A stretch of DNA of 64,000 nucleotides from Alteromonadaceae bacterium Bs31. Lineage in GTDB: Bacteria; Pseudomonadota; Gammaproteobacteria; Pseudomonadales; Cellvibrionaceae. The position numbers and the translations under genes are program-made. Location of the stretch: NCBI GenBank assembly GCA_900177435.1, contig FXAI01000006.1, forward strand, positions 124,001 through 188,000, read 5' to 3'. Below the pieces are notes generated by a model. That model saw only the letters and a program-made list of their open reading frames with translations, did not search any database and had not been told where the DNA came from. Below, in pieces: positions 42,537-57,575 of this stretch (position 1 is the stretch's first letter; each line of letters opens with the position of its first letter).

Positions 42537-43280
42537 ATGTCTGAGCAGAAAGAAGGTATACCACCTCAACAACAAATGGCGCCCTCCTGTGAGCCGGCGA
42601 TAGAGATTTCATCGCTTGTCTTTCGCTACCCCACGGCGGAGGTAGATGCGCTGTCTATTGATCAATGGCGGGTAGCTTCAGGGGAGCATATTTTTTTGCA
42701 CGGCGTATCTGGCTGCGGGAAGAGCACGCTGTTACAGCTTCTTTGTGGTCTTCGTGTTGGGCTTGGGCAATTATCAATCGCCGGAACTCAAATAGCCGGT
42801 TTAACTAAGGCAAAACGTGATCGTTTCCGATCGCTGCGAATTGGTATGGTATTCCAACAATTTAACCTGATGCCGTATTTGTCGGTACTTGATAATGTGG
42901 TACTGGCGGCCAGCTTGGCCGGCTTAACTAAACATGCGAAAGGGAGGGCCGAACAGCTATTAGTACAAGTAGGCTTAACAAAACATGTTTGGAAACAAAA
43001 AGCAAATGCATTAAGTATTGGGCAACAGCAACGTGTGGCCATTGCCCGCGCACTCATTAATTCACCAGAGCTCCTATTATTTGACGAGCCAACTTCAGCT
43101 TTGGATACGTGTAATCAAAAGCAATTCATGACAGTGCTCATGAATCACCTGTCGCTTAACCCCGCCACAACTGTCGTATTCGTTAGCCATGACAAGCGCC
43201 TTGCCCCCTATTTTCGGCAAACAATAGATTTATCGGATATTTCCACCAGCGCCATTTCATTGAAGACAACTAGTGGGTAA
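42537..43280 (+). CDS. ABC transporter ATP-binding protein (LolD/MacB type)
   Basis: This 247-residue ATPase has Walker A GVSGCGKST, Q-loop VFQQFNL, the signature LSIGQQQR (a Ser-Ile-Gly variant of LSGGQ), Walker B LLLFDEPTSALD and an H-loop in VFVSHDKR. The sequence groups with the LolD/MacB class that pairs with FtsX-like permeases. The next gene encodes such a permease and the stop and start regions adjoin. The start ATG at 42537 has no ribosome site and the candidate operator abuts it, so either the mRNA is leaderless or a later start such as ATG 42576 is used. Confidence 0.9.
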   Translation: MSEQKEGIPPQQQMAPSCEPAIEISSLVFRYPTAEVDALSIDQWRVASGEHIFLHGVSGCGKSTLLQLLCGLRVGLGQLSIAGTQIAGLTKAKRDRFRSLRIGMVFQQFNLMPYLSVLDNVVLAASLAGLTKHAKGRAEQLLVQVGLTKHVWKQKANALSIGQQQRVAIARALINSPELLLFDEPTSALDTCNQKQFMTVLMNHLSLNPATTVVFVSHDKRLAPYFRQTIDLSDISTSAISLKTTSG

Positions 43281-43284
43281 AAGA

Positions 43285-44496
43285 ATGCTTATAAAGCTTG
43301 CGTGGCAAAGCCTTTGTTTTCGGCGTGGTGCAGTACTGATAACTGTTGCAGCGCTCGCTGTTAGCGTTTTTACACTACTCAGTATTGAGTACCTGCGCTA
43401 TACCGCTAAACAGAGTTTTAGCAGCACTGTATCGGGCGTCGATTTACTTGTGGGGCCTCGCACGGGCGATATTAATTTATTGTTGACTACGGTTTTTCGT
43501 ATTGGTCAACCCTCGCAAAACATGTCCTTGAAAAGCTATCAGTATTTGACAAACCTTCCTGACGTGTCGTGGAGTATTCCTATCAGCTTGGGAGATTCCC
43601 ACCGCGGGTTTCGCGTTGTTGGGACGGAAAAACAATTCTTTACCCGCTTTCAATACGGCCAGTCTCGGCCTTTAGTTTTCTCTCAGGGAAAAGCGTTTAC
43701 CGATACCTATGAGGTAGTTCTGGGTGCAAGTGTTGCTCGCGATCTTGGTTACAAAAATGGTCAAAAACTTGTTATTGCGCACGGGCTAGGCAAGACGAGT
43801 TTTAAGACGCATGATGCTTTTCCTTTTATAGTAAGCGGCCTCTTAGAGCCCACCGGAACACCGGTGGACAATGCACTGTATGTTAGGCTCGCAGGCTTAG
43901 ACGCAATACATCACACATCAGCAGCACACTTACATAATGCAGAAATGAAGGAGATTGAACCAAAAAGTATTTCAGCGGCGATGGTGGGTTTAAGCACTAA
44001 GCTTTCCACCTTTAAAGTGCAGCGCGAGATAAATACATCCGTCGTTGAACCTCTTACGGCAATTTTGCCTGGTGTGACATTGACACAATTGTGGCAAATG
44101 AGCCGGGGGATAGAAAGCGTAATAGATCTAATGGCGAAATTGATTTTATTCGCTTCTTTGTTGGGGATGGGCGCGGTAATGATAGCGACTTTGCGTGAGA
44201 GATTTTATGAGTTCTCTGTATTACGTACATTGGGCGCCGGGGTTTTCTTAATATTTATTTTAATTCAGGTAGAAGGAGTATTAATTGGCGCGCTTGGCTT
44301 AGCTTTAGGAGGGGCAACGTTTCTTTTGGCGATTAGACTATTTGGCGAGGATTTGGCCATAGCATATGGTATCGATATTGCTACCTACCGCATTTTATCA
44401 ATTTATTTTCTCGTAGCCCTGTACGTATTAATTGGAGCGCTCATTGTTGGTATTGTTCCGGCGTCGACGGGGTATCTTCGCGCCAGGAAACTGTAA
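43285..44496 (+). CDS. FtsX/MacB-type ABC permease
   Basis: This inner-membrane protein of about 403 residues has one N-terminal helix (about 18-38), a large periplasmic MacB-like domain (about 45-270) and three C-terminal helices (about 277-300, 320-350, 370-395), the layout of FtsX/MacB permeases. These systems usually do not import solutes but move lipoproteins or transmit force. In Zrg-type zinc systems such a pair works with DUF2796 and DUF3299 proteins by an unknown mechanism. ATG 43285 is chosen over an in-frame GTG at 43273 because the G-run at 43275-43277 can serve as its ribosome site. Confidence 0.88.
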   Translation: MLIKLAWQSLCFRRGAVLITVAALAVSVFTLLSIEYLRYTAKQSFSSTVSGVDLLVGPRTGDINLLLTTVFRIGQPSQNMSLKSYQYLTNLPDVSWSIPISLGDSHRGFRVVGTEKQFFTRFQYGQSRPLVFSQGKAFTDTYEVVLGASVARDLGYKNGQKLVIAHGLGKTSFKTHDAFPFIVSGLLEPTGTPVDNALYVRLAGLDAIHHTSAAHLHNAEMKEIEPKSISAAMVGLSTKLSTFKVQREINTSVVEPLTAILPGVTLTQLWQMSRGIESVIDLMAKLILFASLLGMGAVMIATLRERFYEFSVLRTLGAGVFLIFILIQVEGVLIGALGLALGGATFLLAIRLFGEDLAIAYGIDIATYRILSIYFLVALYVLIGALIVGIVPASTGYLRARKL

Positions 44497-46319: not shown

Positions 46320-47978
46320 ATGGCCCGGTCTCTGCCAAAGGCTGTAAAAGAGAATCTTCATTTCTTATGTGTTGAGGTGGATTCGCAGCTAAATCTACTA
46401 CAACAATTCTTCAGCACTAGCCCTACGCTCTCTATTGCGCGCAGAATTATGGATCGCAGTGGTTATGTCTATAATCTCAAATTGCGCATTCATACGGCCT
46501 GTATCGATACCTTGGCCGATAGGAGGCAAAAAAGCACTTTAGAACGCCTTCGTTTCCGCAGTGTCGATTTAATTGCAACTGACCTGGAAAGGATCGCTGA
46601 ACTCAGTCGCGGTTGTGTAAAACAAGCCGATCTGGTGAATGATTTCGCGGCTATTCCACAAAAAGGAACCGTAAATTCAATAAGAAAAATACGTGCAGGC
46701 GTAGCATTAATCGAACCCGCGCTGGAGCAGAGTAATTCTGCTAAAGCCATACGGCTTGGCCAGGTGGAAACACAGTTAGATAAAAGCTACAGAAAGCTTC
46801 TCTCCGATTACCAATCATCTGCGCAGACGAAAAAACACTCAGAAGATGGAATACATGCACTTTTTATCGCTTGGCACATCAAGCAAATGGGAGAAACCCT
46901 GGTTAATATCAGTGAAGCGCTCATATCAGCAAACATAGGCCAACCGGTTAACTTTGAGCGATATTATTCCTTGCAGTCAATGATGGGGAGTTTAGAATCC
47001 GACCAACAAGGACTTCAGATAGAACACATTGCGGATACGCGTTCTGGCAGTGCTGTTTCAGGCATAGCATCAAACAAGCGCAGTAATGATAGTAGTAATG
47101 ATAACTATATTGCAATTTTTAAGGATGGATTAAAACGAAAGGTAAAAGAGGAGCGTGAAGGCGTTGAAAGCTGGCATGAAGTTTACCCGGGTTTGGCGCC
47201 TAAGATACTGGCCTATAAAAAACGTGGCCAATCAGCAGCAATTCTTATAGAGCATTTGCCCGGCTTAACTTTTGAGCAAATTGTGTTAAATGAATCGGAC
47301 GAGCTTGTTAAAGAAGCCTTTCGGAAAATTTGCGATACGCTTCGCTCTGTGTGGCGGGAAACTCAAACAAATAAAGCGATTTCAGCCAGTTTTATGGGGC
47401 AGATGGATACACGGATGGCAGAGGTATACAAACTGCACCCGGAGTTCTGCCAAACTAAAAGCAAAATTTGCGAGCTAAGTCTATTGCCCTTCGATACGCT
47501 TGTAAGACGCTGTCAAAGTATTGAAGCAAAGCTTTTTGCTCCTTTTTCTGTGTATATCCACGGTGATTTTAATGTAGATAATATTATATTTGACCCAATC
47601 GAAAAGCGGGTTAACTTTATTGATTTGCATCGCTCATGCTACATGGACTATGCGCAAGATGTTTCGGTTTTTATGGTAAGTAACTATCGTTTACAAACCT
47701 TAGACGCAGGTTTAAGAAAGCGCATAATGTCGGTTGCCATAGATTTTTACCGCAGTACCCGTCGATATGCCAAAAGCCAGAATGATATTACCTTCGATAT
47801 TAGGTTAGCACTGGGTCTGGCGCGCTCCTTTGCGACATCAACCCGCTTTATATTAGACAACACTCTGGCCCGTGATATGTTTTTCCGCTCACGGTATTTA
47901 ATGGAGAAAATACTGGACGCAGACCTAAGTAAGCCGGAAAAATTCAAATTGAATGTGAAGGAGGTTTTCGTTGACTGA
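46320..47978 (+). CDS. PhoU-like helical domain fused to an aminoglycoside-phosphotransferase-type kinase
   Basis: This 552-residue protein is in two parts. Residues 1-230 or so are all-helical with features of PhoU-like three-helix bundles (LERLRFRSVDLIATDLERIAEL and later MGETLVNISEALISANIG). Residues 255-540 form an APH/choline-kinase-type domain: YIAIFKDGLKRKVKEE with the ATP-binding lysine region, AILIEHLPGLTFEQIV as hinge, the catalytic loop H414-G-D416-F-N-V-D-N and the metal-binding D435 in NFIDLHRS. It is a small-molecule-type kinase that should be active; substrate unknown. ATG 46320 follows AGGTAAAGG. The end overlaps the ATP-grasp gene by 8 bp, so the two are coupled. Confidence 0.82.
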   Translation: MARSLPKAVKENLHFLCVEVDSQLNLLQQFFSTSPTLSIARRIMDRSGYVYNLKLRIHTACIDTLADRRQKSTLERLRFRSVDLIATDLERIAELSRGCVKQADLVNDFAAIPQKGTVNSIRKIRAGVALIEPALEQSNSAKAIRLGQVETQLDKSYRKLLSDYQSSAQTKKHSEDGIHALFIAWHIKQMGETLVNISEALISANIGQPVNFERYYSLQSMMGSLESDQQGLQIEHIADTRSGSAVSGIASNKRSNDSSNDNYIAIFKDGLKRKVKEEREGVESWHEVYPGLAPKILAYKKRGQSAAILIEHLPGLTFEQIVLNESDELVKEAFRKICDTLRSVWRETQTNKAISASFMGQMDTRMAEVYKLHPEFCQTKSKICELSLLPFDTLVRRCQSIEAKLFAPFSVYIHGDFNVDNIIFDPIEKRVNFIDLHRSCYMDYAQDVSVFMVSNYRLQTLDAGLRKRIMSVAIDFYRSTRRYAKSQNDITFDIRLALGLARSFATSTRFILDNTLARDMFFRSRYLMEKILDADLSKPEKFKLNVKEVFVD

Positions 47979-48864
47979 TTTAAAGGTTGCTGTGGTTGGA
48001 GTACCGGGAAAATGGTCTACCGAAACGCTTGCGGACTGTTTGGAAGAAAAAACAGGCTACAGACTGGTCATCGATATGGCCGAGGTGGAATTGGACTTGC
48101 AACGCGGTGAACTGCGGTATGGGGATTTCGACCTGTGCAGTTTGGATGGGATTGCGGTTAAAAAAATTAGTGCTGAATACAGCCCTGCAGCCTTGGACAG
48201 GCTTGAGCTACTGCGTTACGCAGAGCAAAAGGGTGTTCGTGTGTTTAGCCCCGTAGGATCTATGCTTGGCATGCTCAACCGTGCAAGTTGTACTGTCAGC
48301 ATGGCGGCGGCTGGTATTCCTATGCCAGAAACGGTGCTAACGGAGAACGTGCAAGTAGCAATGCAGGCAGTGCACACCTTTAAAGCAGCTGTTTTTAAGC
48401 CCCTGTTCTCGACTAAAGCTCGCGGTATGTGCGTATTAGAGAAAGATCAGCAAGATCTAGCCACAGCTATAGCAGTATTTAAGCAAGACAACCCCATGAT
48501 GTATATTCAAAAGAAAGTTGAGTTGCCGGGGCGCGATCTTGGGCTGGTATTTCTTGGCGGAAAATATCTTGGTGCTTATGCTCGTGTTGCGCAAACTGAC
48601 AGCTGGAATACCACTATCAACAGTGGTGGCCGCTATGAAAATGCAGAATTGCCGCAAGCCTATATCGAGCTGGGCTATAAGGCCCAGGCTCTATTTAATA
48701 TGGACTTCACCACTGTGGACTTGGCAGAAACAGATCAGGGCCCAATAATTTTTGAAGTATCTGCTTTTGGCGGTTTTAAGGGAGCGTTAGAGGGCACTGG
48801 GTTAAATGCGGCCAGCAGGTACAGCGATTATATCGTTGACCAGCTGCGGCAAGGCCCAAACTAG
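47971..48864 (+). CDS. RimK-like ATP-grasp ligase (GAK-system type)
   Basis: This 297-residue ATP-grasp enzyme has AVFKPLFSTKARGM as the ATP-binding lysine and glycine loop, MYIQKKVELPGRDLGLVFLGG as the hinge and central strand, and FTTVDLAETDQGPIIFEVSAFGG carrying the Asp/Glu metal ligands. The N-terminal pre-ATP-grasp domain includes LDGIAVKKIS. Such enzymes join an acid to an amine or add glutamate residues, via an acyl phosphate. The start is a TTG at 47971, fixed by an excellent AAGGAGG at 47958-47964; no ATG is available before residue 20. It matches my recollection of the ATP-grasp member of the GAK cassette. Substrate unknown. Confidence 0.85.
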   Translation: MTDLKVAVVGVPGKWSTETLADCLEEKTGYRLVIDMAEVELDLQRGELRYGDFDLCSLDGIAVKKISAEYSPAALDRLELLRYAEQKGVRVFSPVGSMLGMLNRASCTVSMAAAGIPMPETVLTENVQVAMQAVHTFKAAVFKPLFSTKARGMCVLEKDQQDLATAIAVFKQDNPMMYIQKKVELPGRDLGLVFLGGKYLGAYARVAQTDSWNTTINSGGRYENAELPQAYIELGYKAQALFNMDFTTVDLAETDQGPIIFEVSAFGGFKGALEGTGLNAASRYSDYIVDQLRQGPN

Positions 48865-48922
48865 ACCTCGGCACTGCTTAAAAGCAGTGGTAATTAGACA
48901 GTACACTATCGGACAGAAAAAA

Positions 48923-50026
48923 ATGATTATCGATAACACGGCGCTCACTGTAGCGGATGTACAGAATCAGCTGCAAGGTTCTCTGGCGCTATGTGATGCA
49001 CAGCTGCTGCTGGATATGGGCCGGGTTTCTTTGCGCGTAAGAAGTAACTCTGCTGAACTTATTAAAATTTTAAGCCGCTATTTTAAAGCAAGCATACAAC
49101 AGGGCCAGTGTAGCAAAGAAGTCCTCGAAGTGAGGGCGATTGAGTGCCCTGCGCCTTCACTCGATGTTGAATATCAGGAATGGCAAAGAGAAGCAGGGAA
49201 AATAGGCAGAAAAGACAGTTACAGTGATATTGAGGGCGGCCGAATAATACGGAAAGTGCGCACTGGAATGGTCTTTCTGCAGAGTAAAAACCTGTGTTTG
49301 GCAGCGGGGCCTTGTATCGCGTATAACAATCAAGTAATCAATTTTATAAACACACAATATATTACTTACTTGCAACAACGAGGCTGGTTGATCTGTCATG
49401 CAGCGGCTTTATCGAAAAATCAACGGGGCCTTGCGCTGGCTGGCTTATCCGGTGGAGGGAAATCCTCGCTGATGTTGCATTTGCTGGATAATAAACAATG
49501 GAATTACCTAACAAATGATCGTCTGCTGATCGATAAAAAGGATGACACCGTGTGCGCTGCAGGTATCCCAAAGCTCCCGCGAATAAACCCGGGAACCATC
49601 GTAAACAACCCTCGTCTGCACGCCTTATTAAGCTGCGAACAACATGAGCAATTTTCGGCTATGTCCAAAGAAGAACTTTGGTTACACGAAGAAAAATACG
49701 ATGTAAATATCGAACAGCACTATGGAGAAAACCGTTTGAGCACAGAGGCTGAATTAGCGGCCTTTGTGGTATTAAACTGGCAGTTTGCTCCCGGTGATGG
49801 AACACAGCTAACACAAATTGATCTTCGGCAGAGACCCGATTTATTGCAGGCAATTATGAAATCCCCCGGGCCATTTCACCAAAAACTGGATGGTAGTTTC
49901 AACAGCCAAGACCCCGGTTTTAACAACATCGCCTACCTGGAAATGCTGAGTTCTACGCCTGTATACGAAATAACAGGAGATAGGAATTTTACTGAAGCTT
50001 GTACCTTGATTGAGCAATTATTCTGA
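48923..50026 (+). CDS. HprK-related P-loop kinase (type B)
   Basis: This protein of 367 residues has an N-terminal region of about 165 residues with no recognised motif, then a HprK-like kinase core: GWLICHAAALSKNQRGLALAG and the P-loop GLSGGGKSS at 174-182, then NYLTNDRLLI and the GIPKLPRINPGT loop where HPr kinases carry the catalytic aspartate. HprK phosphorylates a serine on HPr in classical systems; the related A and B families have unknown targets. The ATG at 48923 is preferred; the open frame extends back to 48806 inside the previous gene. The ribosome site is weak (GGACAG). It stands 58 bp after the ATP-grasp gene and 8 bp before the Nudix gene. Confidence 0.83.
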   Translation: MIIDNTALTVADVQNQLQGSLALCDAQLLLDMGRVSLRVRSNSAELIKILSRYFKASIQQGQCSKEVLEVRAIECPAPSLDVEYQEWQREAGKIGRKDSYSDIEGGRIIRKVRTGMVFLQSKNLCLAAGPCIAYNNQVINFINTQYITYLQQRGWLICHAAALSKNQRGLALAGLSGGGKSSLMLHLLDNKQWNYLTNDRLLIDKKDDTVCAAGIPKLPRINPGTIVNNPRLHALLSCEQHEQFSAMSKEELWLHEEKYDVNIEQHYGENRLSTEAELAAFVVLNWQFAPGDGTQLTQIDLRQRPDLLQAIMKSPGPFHQKLDGSFNSQDPGFNNIAYLEMLSSTPVYEITGDRNFTEACTLIEQLF

Positions 50027-50034
50027 GCACGGCA

Positions 50035-51006
50035 ATGATCGAACTGCAACTGTATAGGCCCGGAAAAGGCAAGTCCACCAATAAGCAGGAATTAAAGAAA
50101 GCCAGTAAACTCTCTGCACAATTGCTGGGGAACTACTTGCTTGGTCAGGGGCTCACGCCCGATTACGTTTTTTACTCTGAATGCAAGCCCGCTTCTTCTG
50201 CTTCTACATCTGCTTTGCGTACCAGTGCAGAAAAATGCTGCAAAGTAATGGGTTACCCAATAAATGAAATTCGTAGGGTAGATTCCCCTTTCTTCCTGGA
50301 TGAAGAAAAATTTATGGAATTTTTATTGGTCGCATCAGGGAATAACATTCATAGCAAGAAAAAGGTTCTGCTTGTTGCAGATAAAGCTACTCTTAAGCGC
50401 GTAGTTCTTGGGCTGTTAAAGAACATAAAGTGTAAAATCACATTTGCCAGAAACTCTCTGCTGAGATTAGATGTAAACACTTCAGGCGGGTCAGATTCAA
50501 AAACAGTGTGTGCGAGCCAAACCAGCGCCCCACTCCATTTAGGCCAATTACCGAAAACATTTGCTTACCCTACACCGGCTTCTAAAGAGCAAAGGCTACG
50601 CCCTGCATATTATTACAATCAATCTGCAGCAATACCCTATCGAACCGGGGAAAACGGATTGGAGGTAATGTTGGTTGGTTCCAGTGGTCACTTCCACAAG
50701 GGCATTCCCAAGGGCATAATTGACCCGGGCTTAAGTGCTTGTGAGTCTGCCGAAAAAGAAGCTTGGGAAGAAGCTGGAGTAAAAGGAAAGATAAAGAAAA
50801 AGGCACTGGGTAGTTTTCAATATCAAAAATGGGGCGCGCAGTGCAGTGTGGAAGTGTTTTCACTGGCAGTAAGCGAAGTTTGCGATGAGGCAGCATGGCT
50901 GGAGCGCCATCGCGGTAGAGAGTGGCTAAGTGTCGCCAGCGCTTGCGAGCTTATTAAATATAAGCAGCTTATCCCCTTTTTACACCAATTAGAAAAAACA
51001 ATATGA
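50035..51006 (+). CDS. Degenerate SixA-like phosphatase domain fused to a Nudix domain
   Basis: This is a 323-residue fusion. Residues 1-150 or so look like the SixA histidine-phosphatase fold, but the catalytic RHG is replaced: IELQLYRPGKGKS has Pro where the phospho-accepting His should be. The C-terminal half (about 190-323) is a Nudix domain with SAAIPYR and the box region PKGIIDPGLSACESAEKEAWEEAGV. The KEAWEEAGV portion fits REUxEExGU except Lys for Arg, while the earlier Glu of the box is a Leu. So the first half is probably inactive and possibly a binding module, and the Nudix part may have altered chemistry. Its stop codon overlaps a new ATG (ATGA) that opens the broken gene downstream. 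Confidence 0.75.
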   Translation: MIELQLYRPGKGKSTNKQELKKASKLSAQLLGNYLLGQGLTPDYVFYSECKPASSASTSALRTSAEKCCKVMGYPINEIRRVDSPFFLDEEKFMEFLLVASGNNIHSKKKVLLVADKATLKRVVLGLLKNIKCKITFARNSLLRLDVNTSGGSDSKTVCASQTSAPLHLGQLPKTFAYPTPASKEQRLRPAYYYNQSAAIPYRTGENGLEVMLVGSSGHFHKGIPKGIIDPGLSACESAEKEAWEEAGVKGKIKKKALGSFQYQKWGAQCSVEVFSLAVSEVCDEAAWLERHRGREWLSVASACELIKYKQLIPFLHQLEKTI

Positions 51007-51461
51007 CACGCATTGCCATCGCACTGCTTCGTAATGGGGTCATAGAGCAGCGTTCAGACCTACCGCGATAAGCCTGAGGTTTTTTTTTGCAAAATGTTAG
51101 CAGGCTATGTAAGCATCAAGCCAAAGCGATACAGCTGCGCGCCTAAGCCTGGAGCACGGTGTTAGGCACTCAAACCAGCTGCTTAAAAGTCAAATCAAAC
51201 AAGATCTTTTCACCTTTGATTATGGTAACAGTGGCAAACATGATGCGAACACAGTATCGCGCAGTGTCTTTGCCGCTAACCGAACTGGGGCTTACTCGGC
51301 TGCACAGGATGGGTATTCATGCAATAGTCCAAGGGCATAGGAGTCGTCTGCAGGGCCAAAGGTTGGCACTGCGTCAGGGCCAGCTCCATATCGAGTGCGA
51401 TACCACACAGGATAGAAACTCCCGCGCTAAAAAAGGTCTGCAAGGTGTGCTTTCGAGATAA
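51003..51461 (+). pseudogene. Broken gene in the kinase cassette, C-terminal part metallophosphoesterase-like
   Basis: A start codon at 51003 overlaps the Nudix stop as ATGA, the usual sign of a coupled next gene. Its frame gives MTRIAIALLRNGVIEQ and then hits stops at 51069, 51075 and 51144. The same frame reopens from a GTG at 51159 to a stop at 51459-51461; the product ends with HRMGIHAIVQGHRSRLQGQRL followed by RQGQLHIECDTTQDRNSR. The QGHR and IECD elements resemble the end of metallophosphoesterase-like proteins as I remember them. The simplest reading is a decayed gene with deletions and nonsense changes. The 100-residue tail could still be translated, since GGAG precedes the GTG. Family identity is a low-certainty inference. 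Confidence 0.5.
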
Positions 51462-51541
51462 TAAGATTATTAGTATCAGTGACGATTACCCCTTTGCTAA
51501 AATGGTAGTCTCCGAAACATTTAGACTAAGCGCGGTTTGCC

Positions 51542-51808
51542 ATGCAGCAGAATAAAAATCTTTTTACCCATGAATCCCTACAGGATGCTCAGTCCATTCA
51601 GGATATTCTCAAAGCTGTTACCAAAGGCTTGGCCAAGGGCAAGCTCAATTTTAGCGATGAGGATGGCGAGGTCGTATTAAAACCTGAGGGTTTGCTAAAC
51701 CTGAAAGTGACCGCGCGCCGAGAAAATGCAAATAATCGGCTGGACCTGCGCATAAGTTGGCGTGACGAAGAAAAGCTTATTGAAAAGAAGAACCTGCGAG
51801 TAGAGTGA
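51542..51808 (+). CDS. Amphi-Trp domain protein
   Basis: This 88-residue protein consists almost wholly of the amphi-Trp domain: HESLQDAQSIQDILKAVTKG, then KGKLNFSDEDGEVVLKPEGLLNLKVTARR and the end LDLRISWRDEE with the conserved Trp. The domain is named for an amphipathic strand with a conserved tryptophan, and occurs in cassettes with HprK-related kinases and ATP-grasp proteins. Its function is unknown to me; it may be the substrate or carrier handled by the enzymes. No strong ribosome site precedes the ATG. It is separated from the Nudix gene by the broken gene and about 80 bp. Confidence 0.85.
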   Translation: MQQNKNLFTHESLQDAQSIQDILKAVTKGLAKGKLNFSDEDGEVVLKPEGLLNLKVTARRENANNRLDLRISWRDEEKLIEKKNLRVE

Positions 51809-51921: not shown

Positions 51922-54162
51922 ATGTCTAATTACCCTACATGTCTGAAAATTCTACTAGCCCTCCCCTTCGCGATCATTGCCGCATGTGGTGGTGGAGACG
52001 GTTCTACCCCTGGACCTACTATTGAGGCGCCAACTTCGACGCCCAGCCAAGAGCCGACACTACAGCCCACCAGCCTGCAACCTACACAACAGCCCAGTCA
52101 AGAACCCGGTGCTGCGCTTACTCGACATTCAAACACCTCTTGCCTGGCGCCCGCGCAAATTTCAAGTGGAGACGGTGATTTTCAATTGATCCCCGCCTTT
52201 CCTGATCTGCCGGCGCTTAACGGCTTACTTGGCTTGTACCAGGCACCGGGTCGGGATAGCCATTGGTATGCCTTGTTGCGTGAAGGGCAAATTATTCGCT
52301 TTCAAAATTCACCAGACACCAGCAGCTACGAAACGCTAGTAGATATCAGCGCGAGTGTTAGAACCGGTTTTGAACGCGGAGCCTTGGGTTTTGCTTTTCA
52401 TCCCGATTTTGCCAGGAAAGGTTATTTTTATATCTCTTACATCAACTCAGAAGACTATTCCATTATCTCGAGGTTTACCTTTAGCGGTAGCCTGCCAGTT
52501 GCTGGCTCTACAGAAAAAGAAATTCTGCGCTTGCTGCAGCCCGCGGGAAATCATAATGGTGGCAATATTGCTTTTGGCCCGGATAACTACCTGTATATAG
52601 GCTTTGGCGACGGTGGCGGTTCTAATGACCAATACGGTCACGGACAGCGCACATCAAGCCTGCACAGCACGCTCTTGCGTATCGATGTGGACAACGGCGA
52701 GCCCTACGCCATACCCAGCGACAATCCCTTTGTTGGCAATGATGCTTTTTTGCCAGAAATTTACGCCTACGGTTTACGCAACCCCTGGCGCTGGAGTTTT
52801 GATACGCAATCCGGTGAGCTTTGGTTGGCCGATGTGGGGCAAGGTTCTTATGAAGAACTTGATATAGTGAAAGCGGGAGATAACCTTGGCTGGCCGCTTA
52901 TGGAAGGAAATCACTGTTTTGCCGGGCAAAGTTGTAGCACGAGCGGATTGACGCTGCCCGTGCACGAGTACAGTCAAAGCGGTTGTGCTTCTGTTACCGG
53001 CGGTTTTGTATACAGAGGAACCCAGAGCCCGGAAATAAATGGCCATTATTTTTACGCAGATTATTGTACCGGTGAAATTTCTCGCATTTGGCGCAATGGT
53101 GAAAACTATGAAAATGAAACTGTCGCTAATGCGCCTACAAACGTTGCCAGCTTCGCCCAGGCTAACGATGGAGAAGTTTATGTGCTTGCGATCAATGGCT
53201 CGGCAGGCAATGGTATTTACCAAATTGTTTACAGTGAAAATAGCTCCATCAGTATTGCTCAACAGCTATCACAAACAGGTTGTTTTTCTTCCACTCCCGA
53301 CCTGCAAGCAGCAGAAGGCGTGGTTCCCTATAGCATAAAGTCCAAGCTGTGGTCAGACGGCGCTGATAAAACCCGTTATTTTGCAATTCCAGATGGTACA
53401 AAAATTAGCATCGATACCAGTGGCGACTTTCTTTTCCCTACTGGCTCTGTGCTGATTAAAAACTTTTTCGACGGGGAAAGTATTATAGAAACCCGTCTTT
53501 TAATGAATCACAACACTGGTTGGGCCGGTTACAGCTATCAATGGCTGGAAGCTAAAAATGATGCAATATTATTGGATAAAGAAACACAGCTTAACACGGG
53601 CAATTTTATTCACACCTTCCCCTCCCAAGCTCAGTGTAATGTGTGTCATACCGGTGCGGCGCAGGTGTCTTTGGGGATAGAAGCCAGTCAATTAGATACT
53701 GAACACAGCTATGCGCAAAGCGGCATCACATCCAATCAAAATGACGCGCTATATCAGGCGGGCTATTTATACTCCCTGCCAACAGCGACTCAAGTGAGTG
53801 AATTAGCTGATATCAACGACAATTCAGCCAGTACAGCACTGCGAGCAAGAAGTTATTTGCACTCCAATTGCAGTGGTTGCCACCGGCCGAACAGTACAGC
53901 AGCACAGATCGATTTACGTATTCAAACATCCCTAGCGGATACTGGAATTTGTGATGTAGCACCTATTGATGGCAATTGGGGGCTTACTAATGCACGGGTC
54001 GTCGCTCCCGGCTCTGCAGCTTCGTCTGTACTTTACGAAAGAATGGCTACTGCGGACGACCATAGGATGCCGCCGTTGGGAACAAATCTTATCGATCAGG
54101 CGGCGCTCAGTGTGATAGAAAGCTGGATCGACAATATGGCTGATTGCACAGGACGCTACTAG
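51922..54162 (+). CDS. Lipoprotein PQQ-type sugar dehydrogenase (SGDH fold) with two c-type haem motifs
   Basis: This 746-residue protein has a lipoprotein signal (IIAAC, Cys22), a Thr/Pro/Gln/Ser-rich linker (about 25-70), an SGDH-like six-bladed propeller (about 75-430) and a C-terminal haem region. SGDH hallmarks are NHNGGNIAFGPDNYLYIGFGDGG, the YAYGLRNPWRWSFD strand and WLADVGQGSYEELD. CxxCH motifs occur at C572-N-V-C-H576 and C650-S-G-C-H654, with a possible axial Met in RMPPLG. It should oxidise aldose sugars in the periplasm or on the surface and pass electrons through the haems to the respiratory chain. No PQQ synthesis genes are in the window. It does not appear to share a transcript with neighbours. 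Confidence 0.85.
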   Translation: MSNYPTCLKILLALPFAIIAACGGGDGSTPGPTIEAPTSTPSQEPTLQPTSLQPTQQPSQEPGAALTRHSNTSCLAPAQISSGDGDFQLIPAFPDLPALNGLLGLYQAPGRDSHWYALLREGQIIRFQNSPDTSSYETLVDISASVRTGFERGALGFAFHPDFARKGYFYISYINSEDYSIISRFTFSGSLPVAGSTEKEILRLLQPAGNHNGGNIAFGPDNYLYIGFGDGGGSNDQYGHGQRTSSLHSTLLRIDVDNGEPYAIPSDNPFVGNDAFLPEIYAYGLRNPWRWSFDTQSGELWLADVGQGSYEELDIVKAGDNLGWPLMEGNHCFAGQSCSTSGLTLPVHEYSQSGCASVTGGFVYRGTQSPEINGHYFYADYCTGEISRIWRNGENYENETVANAPTNVASFAQANDGEVYVLAINGSAGNGIYQIVYSENSSISIAQQLSQTGCFSSTPDLQAAEGVVPYSIKSKLWSDGADKTRYFAIPDGTKISIDTSGDFLFPTGSVLIKNFFDGESIIETRLLMNHNTGWAGYSYQWLEAKNDAILLDKETQLNTGNFIHTFPSQAQCNVCHTGAAQVSLGIEASQLDTEHSYAQSGITSNQNDALYQAGYLYSLPTATQVSELADINDNSASTALRARSYLHSNCSGCHRPNSTAAQIDLRIQTSLADTGICDVAPIDGNWGLTNARVVAPGSAASSVLYERMATADDHRMPPLGTNLIDQAALSVIESWIDNMADCTGRY

Positions 54163-54358: not shown

Positions 54359-55363
54359 CTACATGTCCTTCTCAGCTTTTGATATTTCTCCAGGAGAGAA
54401 GCCATAAGCTTTTCGAAAAGCCAGAGAAAAGTTGGACGCCTGCTTGTATCCGGCTAAAAACGCAGCCTCTCCGATAGTGAAATTTCGTTCTTTCATTGCA
54501 TTTAAAGCATTTGCTAGTTTTGCCTGGCGAATGTGTTTTAACAGGCTCTCGCCAAAGCATTTTTTCGCTATGCGCTGCATACTACTGGCACTGGTACCCA
54601 GTGACTTTGCCAGTTCGTCTACTTGAAGATCTGATAGTTGTATATTTTCCCGCATAACGATATCGCGTACACAAGCCTGTACTCTTTGCTCGAGCGTTTC
54701 CGGTGCCTGGGGTGCATGTGCATGTTTAAGAAGGCAACGTACCCCTTTATCAAGCTCTTCTCCTGCGGCTGAAAGCAAGGTGGCGATATTAGACATTTGC
54801 TGAAACTTTTGTTGCACGCTGGTCTCGTTCGGTAACGCGAGTAATGAATTTACTGCGGTGACGATTTCATCAGTGGCTGCAAACTTTTGTAGCTGAGGTT
54901 GGCCTTGGCACATGAGAGTCTCTAGCCCCATACACGTAAGCCACGCACCAGTGGTACCCAAGGTAAATTTGTGTACGCGAGCCCTCGCCTTAAATCGTCG
55001 TCTTAAGCGCAGTGGTGCTGCGTTGGAAAAGCAAAAAGCCAAAGGGGCCTCTGCTTTTAAACTGTGCGGGCAACCATTAATCTCAAGTTGTAATTCCCCT
55101 TCGTACAGTAAGCCGAAAGTCATACCTGCTTGTACCTCAAAGCTTACTTCTGCATTTTTGCTGGCATGGGCTTCGGCGTAATGCCAATGCCAATCACTGG
55201 TAATCCTGGCACTTCGTACCACGCCCGCTAGTATCGGCTTGTTCTTTACCTCTTTACGCCAGAGCACATCCCTACTTTGGCCTGCCGCTAACATGAGTAA
55301 CTGTTGTTTGCTTAAGTCGGGGCTTTGTTGACGCTCCTGAATAGCATATTGACTGTTTTTCAT
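54359..55363 (-). CDS. AraC-family regulator, PchR/siderophore-type
   Basis: This 334-residue protein has an N-terminal sensing half (about 1-215) and a C-terminal AraC domain (about 225-330). Both helix-turn-helix units are clear: LSDLQVDELAKSLGTSASSMQRIAKKCFGESL and the second, FTIGEAAFLAGYKQASNFSLAFRKAYGFSP. This length and the position divergent from a TonB receptor match the PchR-like activators that sense a ferri-siderophore. A Fur box lies in the 94-bp divergent space. It is likely to activate the receptor operon to its right. Confidence 0.88.
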   Translation of the reverse strand: MKNSQYAIQERQQSPDLSKQQLLMLAAGQSRDVLWRKEVKNKPILAGVVRSARITSDWHWHYAEAHASKNAEVSFEVQAGMTFGLLYEGELQLEINGCPHSLKAEAPLAFCFSNAAPLRLRRRFKARARVHKFTLGTTGAWLTCMGLETLMCQGQPQLQKFAATDEIVTAVNSLLALPNETSVQQKFQQMSNIATLLSAAGEELDKGVRCLLKHAHAPQAPETLEQRVQACVRDIVMRENIQLSDLQVDELAKSLGTSASSMQRIAKKCFGESLLKHIRQAKLANALNAMKERNFTIGEAAFLAGYKQASNFSLAFRKAYGFSPGEISKAEKDM

Positions 55364-55414
55364 ATGGATTAGCCCTTACTCCTGTGTGCGATATACGTAA
55401 AATGAGCTCCCAAT

Positions 55415-55433
55415 GTAAATCATTCTCATTCGC
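55415..55433. promoter_or_regulatory. Fur box between the AraC gene and the receptor gene
   Basis: Minus-strand 19-mer GCGAATGAGAATGATTTAC matches 13 of 19 consensus positions by my count; the GAATGAGAATGATTT core is typical. It is 25 bases before the receptor ATG and about 50 from the regulator start, so it could govern both genes. Confidence 0.65.
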
Positions 55434-55457
55434 ACATAAAGAGGTATTGAGGTATCT

Positions 55458-57575
55458 ATGCATATTTTGCTAAAAAAGAACCCTCTAGTACTGGCCATAG
55501 CGGCTTGTATTAGTACGTTCGCTAGCGCTGAAGAAGTAAAGCCCGCGATCGAAGAAGTCCAGGTATGGAGCACCAAAGTTAAGGCATCGTCCCTGGACTT
55601 GGGCGAAGAGGCCATTGCTATTCGTCAGGCTGACCATATCAGTGACCTGCTGCGCTTCATTCCCGGCGTGGATGTGGGTGGAGCACACTCGTTAAATCAG
55701 CGTATCACTATCAGGAGCCTCGACGATAAAGATTTGAACGTTACGATCGATGGCGCCGTGCAAAATACCTATATGTTCCACCACATGGGCAATCTACAGA
55801 TCCATTCTGATATCTTGCGAGAAGCCGATATTGAGGTGGGCAATAACTCTGTACTCTCTGGCAGTCTTGGTGGCGTAGCCCGTTTTAAAACCCGCTCTGC
55901 GAAAGATATGCTCAGTGATGGAAAACGTTTTGGAGCGCGCATTAACGCAACTTACGCGGCCAATGCTTCTGAGCGCGCTTCGATTGCCGGCTTTGGCCAA
56001 CTGAGTGAATCCATCGATGTCCTTGCCTACGTTAACCGAGTGGAGAGCGATAACTACGAAGTGGGAGGCGGCGAAATCAAGGATAGCGATGGAGTGGTCA
56101 TAGCGGGAACTGACGGCACAGTGCGAGGATTGGAAGGCTCCCTTACAGATAGTTTGTTAAAAGTAGGCTTTGACATAACAGATAATCAGCGCGTAAAAGT
56201 GGGCTACGAAATTTATAAAGATGAGGGTGACTACAGCTCCCGGCCGGATATGGGGCTTGCTACCGATATTGCTATTGGTGCGCGATTAGGTGTCGATGGC
56301 TTGCCGCAACTCTACCCCACGACATTTACGCGCGATACAGCAACGCTTAATTACGATGCTAATTTTAATAATGTAAGCATTGAGGCAGTAGTGTTTAACA
56401 ATGTCAGCTCGCTGGAGCGGGAGGAGGCTTACGTCTGGCAAGGTAGTCTGGTGGAAGAGCACAACAAGGGTGAAGCGACTAATACCGGTGCGAGTATATT
56501 GTTTGAGCAGCGGCTGGGTGGCAATGTTGAGCACACACTTACCTATGGACTGGAAACTGTAAAATATAAAACCCAGTACACAGGAGTGAACCTCACAAGC
56601 AACACATCACAACAAAGCCGGGAAGAGGCGCACTCCAGTGCAGTCTATATACAAGATCGTATTGCGCTGGGAAACCTCAGTATTATCCCTGGGGCGCGAT
56701 TTAATCACTGGGTAATTGATAGCAAGCTCGTGGATAAAACCTATTCTGAGCCCACCTTTGCTCTTGCCCTGGAGTATGCAATAGATAGTGCAACAAGTAT
56801 CAAATTGAGCACAACCGAGCTGTTCAAAGGCCCCAAATTATCTGAAGTATTCGTGGGAGCAGGTATCGGTGATGTTTACAATCAAGATATTAAGGCAGAA
56901 ACAGGCCGTAATACCGAAATTGGAATTAGCCATCAAGGGCAGACATTCCGAACGGGATTAACCGCGTTTGACACTCAAATTAATGATTACATCTACGATT
57001 ACATTAACTACACCCTCAGTGCGGCTCCCTACCCCAAAGATAATATCGGTGATATGCAGCTGCAAGGTATTGAAGCTTTCTGGGGCTTTACGTTAGATAG
57101 CTTGGACGTGCTGCTGACCTACTCCGATGTTAATAGTGAGCTCAGTGCCTACGAACCTTATATCGAGTTACCTTTTGAAGGCGTGGTGCAAGAGGGATTC
57201 GATGGCGCAAGAACGGATCGAAGCTATGGCAGTACTTACGGCTTGAATATTGATTATTTCTTTAGCGATAAAGATATTCATCTGCATTACGACATCATGC
57301 ACGTAGGCAGTCTGCCTGCGGGAAAAGATTTAGACGGAGCGGGTCTGGATAACTCTAAAAACGCATACACCGTGCATAACGTTTCTGCTCAGTGGCAAGT
57401 TGCAGGTGTTGAAGGTCTAAGCATAACCTTGGGCATCGATAATATTTTTGACGAGTACTATGCCTCGCAAGCCTCTCGCACCGGAGCTTCATTTCATCCA
57501 GTTTTTGGCGAGCTTTACCTGACTGACTATGAGCCTGGCCGCAACTTGAAAGCCAGTGTTGCTTATCAGTTTTAG
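55458..57575 (+). CDS. TonB-dependent outer-membrane receptor, Fur/AraC-controlled
   Basis: This 705-residue receptor has a signal peptide (about 1-24), a TonB-box-like IEEVQVWSTK, a plug (QADHISDLLRFIPGVDVGGAHSLNQRITIRSL; VGNNSVLSGSLGGVARFKTR) and a barrel ending SVAYQF. The FKGPKLSEVFVG stretch and the ITLGIDNIFDEYYASQAS end are typical of haem or siderophore receptors. It is followed by PepSY, DUF2271 and DUF4198 genes, a set found with iron-uptake receptors. Ligand not determined from sequence. It differs clearly from the His-rich zinc receptors and from the FhuE-like receptor elsewhere in the window. Confidence 0.88.
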   Translation: MHILLKKNPLVLAIAACISTFASAEEVKPAIEEVQVWSTKVKASSLDLGEEAIAIRQADHISDLLRFIPGVDVGGAHSLNQRITIRSLDDKDLNVTIDGAVQNTYMFHHMGNLQIHSDILREADIEVGNNSVLSGSLGGVARFKTRSAKDMLSDGKRFGARINATYAANASERASIAGFGQLSESIDVLAYVNRVESDNYEVGGGEIKDSDGVVIAGTDGTVRGLEGSLTDSLLKVGFDITDNQRVKVGYEIYKDEGDYSSRPDMGLATDIAIGARLGVDGLPQLYPTTFTRDTATLNYDANFNNVSIEAVVFNNVSSLEREEAYVWQGSLVEEHNKGEATNTGASILFEQRLGGNVEHTLTYGLETVKYKTQYTGVNLTSNTSQQSREEAHSSAVYIQDRIALGNLSIIPGARFNHWVIDSKLVDKTYSEPTFALALEYAIDSATSIKLSTTELFKGPKLSEVFVGAGIGDVYNQDIKAETGRNTEIGISHQGQTFRTGLTAFDTQINDYIYDYINYTLSAAPYPKDNIGDMQLQGIEAFWGFTLDSLDVLLTYSDVNSELSAYEPYIELPFEGVVQEGFDGARTDRSYGSTYGLNIDYFFSDKDIHLHYDIMHVGSLPAGKDLDGAGLDNSKNAYTVHNVSAQWQVAGVEGLSITLGIDNIFDEYYASQASRTGASFHPVFGELYLTDYEPGRNLKASVAYQF

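Follow-up and report, generated by a model that had tools for sequence, protein, structure and literature searches.

What does the GAK cassette do, and can a copy that has lost several of its genes still do it? Both questions are raised by positions 46320-51808 of a 64,000-nucleotide stretch from the genome of Alteromonadaceae bacterium Bs31 (contig FXAI01000006.1, positions 124,001 to 188,000; this whole stretch is called the window), where a GAK cassette of five intact genes and one broken gene was identified on the + strand. Three of its products exceeded the curated NCBIfam cut-offs for GAK families: an ATP-grasp enzyme (426 bits against TIGR04356, cut-off 300), the HprK-related kinase B, hereafter HprK-B (342 bits against TIGR04355, cut-off 200), and an amphi-Trp protein (67 bits against TIGR04354, cut-off 31; also 31 bits against PF20068). 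The name GAK is therefore already in a database, as a preliminary description of this DNA had correctly stated (NCBIfam TIGR04354-TIGR04357); to our knowledge it is a name to which no function is attached. Searches of the openly licensed PMC literature retrieved no relevant paper naming the GAK, amphi-Trp or HprK-related families or citing their TIGR/PF accessions, and none for two combinations of gene names. The reading preferred here, at a probability of roughly 0.5, is that GAK is a phosphate-stress phospho-modification module in which a PhoU-APH kinase, HprK-B and the ATP-grasp enzyme would act as writers and the amphi-Trp protein as their partner.

The features of the locus are:

46320..47978, + strand: PhoU domain fused to an APH/choline-kinase-like kinase, 552 aa; first cassette gene (hidden Markov model (HMM) and PDB profiles)
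47971..48864, + strand: GAK-type ATP-grasp enzyme, 297 aa; overlaps the kinase gene (TIGR04356)
48806..50026, + strand: open reading frame (ORF) of HprK-B, with an in-frame ATG at 48923 (TIGR04355)
50035..51006, + strand: SixA-Nudix fusion; SixA half catalytically degraded, Nudix box residues kept
51003..51071, + strand: possible N-terminal scrap of a histidine phosphatase gene (MTRIAIALLRNG...; stop after 22 codons)
51152..51504, + strand: metallophosphatase pseudogene, a C-terminal remnant in three frames (tblastn); includes the open stretch 51159-51461
51542..51808, + strand: amphi-Trp protein, 88 aa (TIGR04354, PF20068)

The genes proposed in the preliminary description (PhoU/APH, ATP-grasp, HprK-related, SixA-Nudix and amphi-Trp) were all recovered at these coordinates on the + strand. 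In relatives, HprK-B is called from starts close to where the ATP-grasp gene ends.

Gene linkage and the usual cassette

The GAK ATP-grasp exceeded its cut-off in 3 of 58 genomes in a search of relatives and in 13 of 398 genomes of the phylum, the genome of the window being included in both. At looser limits it was found in 14 of the 398 genomes (E<=1e-60) and HprK-B in 16 (E<=1e-30). The preliminary description had named a failure of these families to co-occur as the finding that would speak against it; the outcome was strongly positive, with HprK-B in 14 of 14 genomes carrying the ATP-grasp (Fisher p about 5e-24). The amphi-Trp protein occurred in 21 of the 398 genomes, namely in 13 of the 16 with HprK-B versus 8 of the 382 others (p about 1e-16). 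The linkage of the three families is far beyond chance.

The arrangement of the cassette was derived from a scan of named genomes, from which the best 80 of at least 493 confirmed stretches were taken, giving 81 loci with the window. Gene counts refer to the 58 loci (window included) with enough flank, the remainder being short of it. Based on clustering and tblastn, the usual order is a divergent CofD-like gene followed by Nudix, PhoU-APH, ATP-grasp, HprK-B, SixA-Nudix, histidine phosphatase, metallophosphatase and amphi-Trp. A PhoU-APH homolog and the ATP-grasp were present in 58 of 58 cassettes, HprK-B in 57, amphi-Trp in 55, histidine phosphatase and metallophosphatase in 54 each, SixA-Nudix in 39, Nudix in 36 (a count which may include cross-matches to SixA-Nudix; ORF clustering gave Nudix in 33 of the 81 loci) and the CofD-like gene in 28. 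Where the upstream flank was long enough (62 loci), this last gene accompanied the cassette in 34; at genome level it was found in 4 of 17 cassette-bearing genomes, some of which are incomplete; the genome of the window gave 0 matches to the CofD-like family TIGR04357. In two cassette-bearing genomes, G212 (L032/L130) and G196 (L033/L127), the CofD-like gene lies far from the cassette.

The GAK ATP-grasp was also found in five plasmid records of Rhodobacterales, the plasmids being predicted to be non-mobilizable. Three plasmid copies (L261-L263, one per species) carry the core genes in the usual order, with a CofD-like gene in two and a Nudix gene in one. Among viral contigs, 30 pattern matches to the ATP-grasp yielded 0 confirmed members, and in phages only two distant ATP-grasp matches (28% and 24% identity) were seen. 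When eight proteins were compared with the PADLOC anti-phage defence models, 0 families matched. One typical proteobacterial cassette (L096) comes from a record titled Halobacteria archaeon, possibly through a binning error.

The window carries a reduced copy

The preliminary description pictured four enzymes and an amphi-Trp protein. These parts are present, but the picture is that of a reduced copy: the usual cassette adds a histidine phosphatase and a PPP-like metallophosphatase, neither of which is intact in the window. The "decayed coupled gene" of that description is real, positions 51152-51504 being the C-terminal part of the cassette metallophosphatase in three frames (tblastn against cassette metallophosphatases, best E=9e-27, the other two frames contributing additional segments). 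The open stretch 51159-51461 was rejected as a genuine small gene, being part of this pseudogene. The histidine phosphatase gene is lost, apart from the possible scrap at 51003. The scrap is not significant by itself (tblastn E 0.09-0.15, with chance matches elsewhere in the window at 0.02-0.04), and its assignment rests on position and on the gene order in relatives.

The SixA-Nudix fusion had been taken for an enzyme, which may hold for one half of it. The Nudix half matched PF00293 with 27 bits and keeps the Nudix box residues, but in the SixA half neither catalytic motif survives (RHG to RPG and HN to DK), and the RHG and the second catalytic His of SixA phosphohistidine phosphatases are gone with them. 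This half had no HMM match in the window and was recognised through relatives and alignment; in relative L057 it reached 57 bits against TIGR00249, under that model's cut-off of 74.5. Across the alignment, RHG or RHA is found in 48 of 55 rows and HN likewise in 48 of 55. L104 and L121 also lack both motifs, yet keep both phosphatase genes. Of the other cassettes among the 58, only L085, L089 and L114 are without both phosphatase genes; L085 and L089 keep the SixA catalytic motifs, and L114 is also without HprK-B and amphi-Trp. An apparent absence from the Roseibium loci L072 and L123 proved to be an artefact of ORF calling, both genes being found by tblastn.

The kinases and the ligase of the window keep nearly all family-invariant residues. 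The window cassette is a reduced copy, in which the phosphatases are lost and the kinases, ligase, Nudix box and amphi-Trp protein look intact. What has gone can be judged from the relatives, whose metallophosphatase shows DxH, GGDCxDKG, GNHD and GH motifs and a PPP-like fold, whereas the window has a remnant only. The structure predicted for the relatives' protein (predicted local distance difference test, pLDDT, 88) was nearest to a Shewanella protein-tyrosine phosphatase (1v73, E=1.5e-8), followed by RDGC, PP5, PP1, PP2A and the Pnkp phosphatase domain; the template modelling score on the query was 0.37-0.42 for the top three PDB matches.

Pho boxes and phosphate genes

Putative PhoB sites were sought with a matrix of 18 bases built from 17 pstS promoter sites of cassette-bearing genomes. 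The sites were drawn from 29 pstS upstream regions (plus-strand score of at least 10, duplicates removed, the short locus L146 omitted) by means of what we take to be the E. coli Pho-box consensus. The matrix was applied to 63 non-redundant of 69 GAK upstream regions, the window being left out, and to control upstream regions from random stretches of cassette-bearing genomes (60 of 64 drawn regions used). Scores of at least 15 bits were found in 10 of 63 GAK upstream regions versus 0 of 484 controls (p=2e-10), and scores of at least 10 bits in 20 of 63 versus 25 of 484. An earlier control within the loci, at 14 bits or more, gave 12 of 70 versus 6 of 295. The ten best regions belong to Zhongshania (3), Thalassospira or near it (3), Gilvimarinus (2) and metagenome-assembled genomes (MAGs; 2). 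Outside these ten stands L106 (Thalassospira), which scored -0.6 bits in the tested stretch and 19.6 when this was widened. The plasmid copies scored 13.2, 8.3 and 8.5 bits.

Genes of inorganic phosphate (Pi) or polyphosphate (polyP) metabolism lie within 10 kb of 15 of 80 GAK loci versus 1 of 60 random 20-kb stretches of GAK genomes (p=0.001); with full flanks only, the count is 7 of 46 loci (p=0.012). Among chosen neighbours, Pfam confirmed NptA (Na/Pi cotransporter) with a PhoU domain, PHO4, CHAD, PPK1, PPX, DUF47, a PhoB-type response regulator and a second histidine phosphatase. The commonest non-cassette clusters, leaving aside one probably antisense ORF cluster (12 loci), were a Na/Pi cotransporter and a protein judged CorC-like by eye, each present in 11 of 81 loci. 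In G071 the distance between a Na/Pi cotransporter gene and the GAK ATP-grasp gene is about 3 kb (G071:C1:369396-373674). According to PMC6537752, CHAD is a polyP-binding domain. A CHAD protein stands beside the cassette in L063, L066, L071, L082, L083, L087, L096 and L104, which are mostly gammaproteobacterial MAGs and include Aestuariispira, and is accompanied by a ParA-like ATPase in six of these eight loci.

The genome of the window (G000) has PhoB and three Na/Pi cotransporter loci. No TIGR02136-type PstS was found in it at E<=1e-20, in a search that was positive for 30 of 31 genomes, 12 of them above the cut-off, and neither PstC nor Pit exceeded its cut-off. The pstSCAB-phoU block of the congener G001 is missing from a largely collinear contig of G000 (syntenic place G000:C27:452042-465145, L193-L194, outside the window), and the congener G006 is likewise without a Pit over the cut-off. 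In the seven congeners PstC is present, and none has a GAK ATP-grasp above the cut-off.

The putative writers and the amphi-Trp protein

The first gene product matched the APH kinase family PF01636 (40 bits) and the PhoU family PF01895 (39.9 bits) of Pfam, and keeps the motifs HGDFNxDNII and IDLHRS. Its PhoU domain is of full length, PDB PhoU chains matching profile positions from about 15 to 220, and, as judged from sequence, this would count in favour of a link to phosphate stress.

After GAK, the next best family for the ATP-grasp was MptN (148 bits, under that model's cut-off of 350), and its PDB relatives were RimK and LysX, the RimK alignment spanning positions 23-284. An inositol-kinase reading of the enzyme was dropped because RimK, LysX and MptN are its best relatives. 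The metal site reads D..E..S in GAK and D..E..N in RimK; the D and E are kept and the Asn is replaced by Ser, so the window enzyme does not have the D-E-N site of the RimK type. In addition, the GxDIR Arg of RimK/LysX is Gly. The Ser and the Gly were both present in 14 of 14 profile-found members, and the Ser also in 69 of 69 members of the scan set, window included, a count that is not independent as the scan pattern itself contained that stretch (FEVSAFGG). The Asn is presumably a Mg ligand in RimK, and we likewise assume a role for the DIR Arg; with both replaced, a carboxylate-amine ligase reaction is therefore not assured.

HprK-B keeps the P-loop GLSGGGKSS, which fits the GxxxxGKS pattern of HPr kinases, and the catalytic acid (ND). 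By profile comparison it is distantly related to HPr kinase/phosphorylase (HprK/P; 70% probability, pairwise E=4e-5), and a PDB sequence search gave a single match at E=1.2. The EVRGLG signature and the C-terminal PVAPGRN phosphorylase region, found in 4 of 4 HprK/P proteins, are absent from the HprK-B consensus, and HprK-B thus has neither the EVRG-type signature nor the phosphorylase region of HPr kinases. Brucella HprK is a distant relative of HprK-B; its kinase activity is inhibited by Pi (PMC2937029).

The amphi-Trp protein is predicted to consist of a helix and four strands (best AlphaFold2 pLDDT 85, the other four models 73 to 42), and a PDB fold search with the model returned nothing better than E=2. 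GAK-linked members share the motif F-x-H-x-S-L-Q, with F8 in 39 of 39, H10 in 37, S12 in 37 and Q14 in 34. The amphi-Trp cluster comprised 40 ORFs, of which an alignment took in 30. Ser12 is Ala in two cassette-bearing genomes, G196 (L033/L127) and G212 (L032/L130), which weakens it as a universal phosphosite. Where amphi-Trp occurs without GAK (8 of 382 genomes), the six legible sequences of nine loci (L136, L138, L140-L142 and L145) are without H-x-S-L-Q; wrong-frame picks (L126, L139, L143 and L144) were left out of this comparison.

A proposed phosphate-stress module and its alternatives

Taken together with the gene set, the Pho boxes suggest how a phosphate-stress module might work. At low phosphate PhoB would, in at least some lineages, turn the cassette on. 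A small-molecule kinase gated by its PhoU domain, the HprK-like kinase and the ATP-grasp ligase would then add phosphate and an amide-type bond to a target, either a small molecule or a protein and possibly the amphi-Trp protein; the latter would serve as carrier or adaptor. The histidine phosphatase, the PPP-like phosphatase and the Nudix and SixA hydrolases would remove the phosphate again. The reduced copy of the window might still work, in the build direction only and outside PhoB control.

Several observations weigh against this proposal. We know of no enzymatic activity for any GAK protein. Most GAK upstream regions (53 of 63) score under 15 bits, and 7 of the 10 best Pho boxes are on the opposite strand from the operon. 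In a de novo dyad search the Pho box was not the top-ranking motif; TGGG N11 TGTT and others came first, perhaps because the stretches searched include CofD coding sequence, and TGTC N9 TAAC came lower (8 observed versus 0.4 expected). In Roseibium, with 7 of 8 loci scanned, the best Pho-box score was 5.3 bits and there was no Pi/polyP neighbour. Most of the loci behind the neighbour signal belong to related gammaproteobacterial MAGs and hence are not independent, and proteins encoded next to GAK cassettes supplied 6 of the 17 queries; for both reasons the p-values of this signal are optimistic. The preliminary description had also hinted at phosphate conditions. This hint is borne out by the relatives, with their Pho boxes and neighbours, but not by the window copy, whose upstream region scores 5.0 bits at best, too low for a Pho regulon member, and which has no Pi/polyP gene within 10 kb.

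The same proteins allow other explanations. HprK-B, with its P-loop and ND acid, could phosphorylate the Ser of F-x-H-x-S-L-Q in the amphi-Trp protein and the PPP-like phosphatase reverse this, as HprK/P and phosphatases do with HPr and Crh; this would be a specific form of the modification suggested in the preliminary description. The motif is kept in most of the 39 GAK-linked proteins and lacking in the six legible others, and the nearest structures to the metallophosphatase model are protein Tyr and Ser/Thr phosphatases, including 1v73, PP5, PP1 and PP2A. Such a protein switch is nevertheless improbable: Ser12 is Ala in G196 and G212, HprK-B lacks the EVRG-type signature, and the ATP-grasp and APH kinase are left unexplained. 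It is more doubtful still that the kinases, together with the RimK/MptN-like ligase and the CofD-like protein, assemble an F420-like phosphodiester-amino-acid tail, with the phosphatases proof-reading or recycling it. MptN as second-best ATP-grasp family, although below its cut-off, and the CofD-like gene near the cassette in 34 of 62 loci are in keeping with a cofactor pathway, but 13 of the 17 cassette-bearing genomes, that of the window among them, are without CofD, and the Asn and DIR Arg of RimK are replaced in the ligase.

A third alternative concerns the window copy, which might be a disappearing relic that no longer has a function, with only the full cassettes elsewhere at work. It has lost three phosphatase activities and has no CofD, stand-alone Nudix or Pho box; seven genomes of the same genus are without a GAK ATP-grasp over the cut-off, and its own genome is without pst and pit. 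Outside the SixA half, however, what is left of the cassette consists of full-length open genes with nearly every family-invariant residue kept, which makes free decay unlikely for them, and we consider a relic unlikely. The phosphate-stress module remains the preferred reading, and a bolder form of it may be put forward tentatively, on the improbable side as we judge it: an undescribed pathway of phosphate starvation in which a novel phosphorylated conjugate is both made and taken apart, by a logic resembling inositol-pyrophosphate signalling. There the ATP-grasp and the other kinases are proposed to build, the histidine phosphatase, Nudix and PPP enzymes to erase and PhoU to sense, and the window would be a natural "write-only" version whose genome has also given up Pst and Pit. 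With the likely PhoB link and the Pi/polyP neighbours, the question of the GAK substrate becomes testable. The window copy is itself a natural experiment, in which the phosphatases, CofD and Nudix proved losable and the two kinases, the ligase and the amphi-Trp protein were kept.

Genes around the cassette

Directly downstream of the amphi-Trp gene, positions 51922-54162 encode a glucose/sorbosone dehydrogenase domain fused to a diheme cytochrome c of the SO2930 type (253 bits, under that model's cut-off). Farther downstream (54359-57575) an AraC-type regulator adjoins a TonB-dependent receptor on the other strand. An ABC ATPase and MacB-like permease pair is located upstream of the cassette at 42537-44496.

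Comparison with known systems

The window shares the ATP-grasp, HprK-B and amphi-Trp families with the NCBIfam GAK system, all over their cut-offs and in the usual order. It differs from the usual cassette in that its genome has no CofD-like gene, both phosphatases are lost, the SixA half is dead and no Pho box is present.

HprK/P acting with HPr or Crh resembles the set in having a profile-related P-loop kinase, a small partner of about 88 aa, and Nudix and CofD-like genes in company; the yvcI-yvcJ-yvcK-crh genes of Firmicutes are what we take to be the parallel. The EVRGLG signature and PVAPGRN region of HprK/P are both missing from HprK-B, and amphi-Trp, a predicted helix with four strands, may also differ from HPr.

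The ppk-pptA(CHAD)-Nudix operon of Streptomyces, placed under PhoR/PhoP control in the available part of PMC8003754, resembles what is proposed for GAK in being phosphate-controlled and in having a Nudix hydrolase, and CHAD and PPK adjoin some GAK loci. The kinase/ATP-grasp/HprK/amphi-Trp set of GAK is not mentioned in that part of the source. The RimK, LysX and MptN ligases belong by profile to the same enzyme family as the GAK ATP-grasp, which departs from RimK by Asn to Ser at the Mg ligand, by Arg to Gly in DIR and by WNTTIHSGG in place of FRSNLHRGG.

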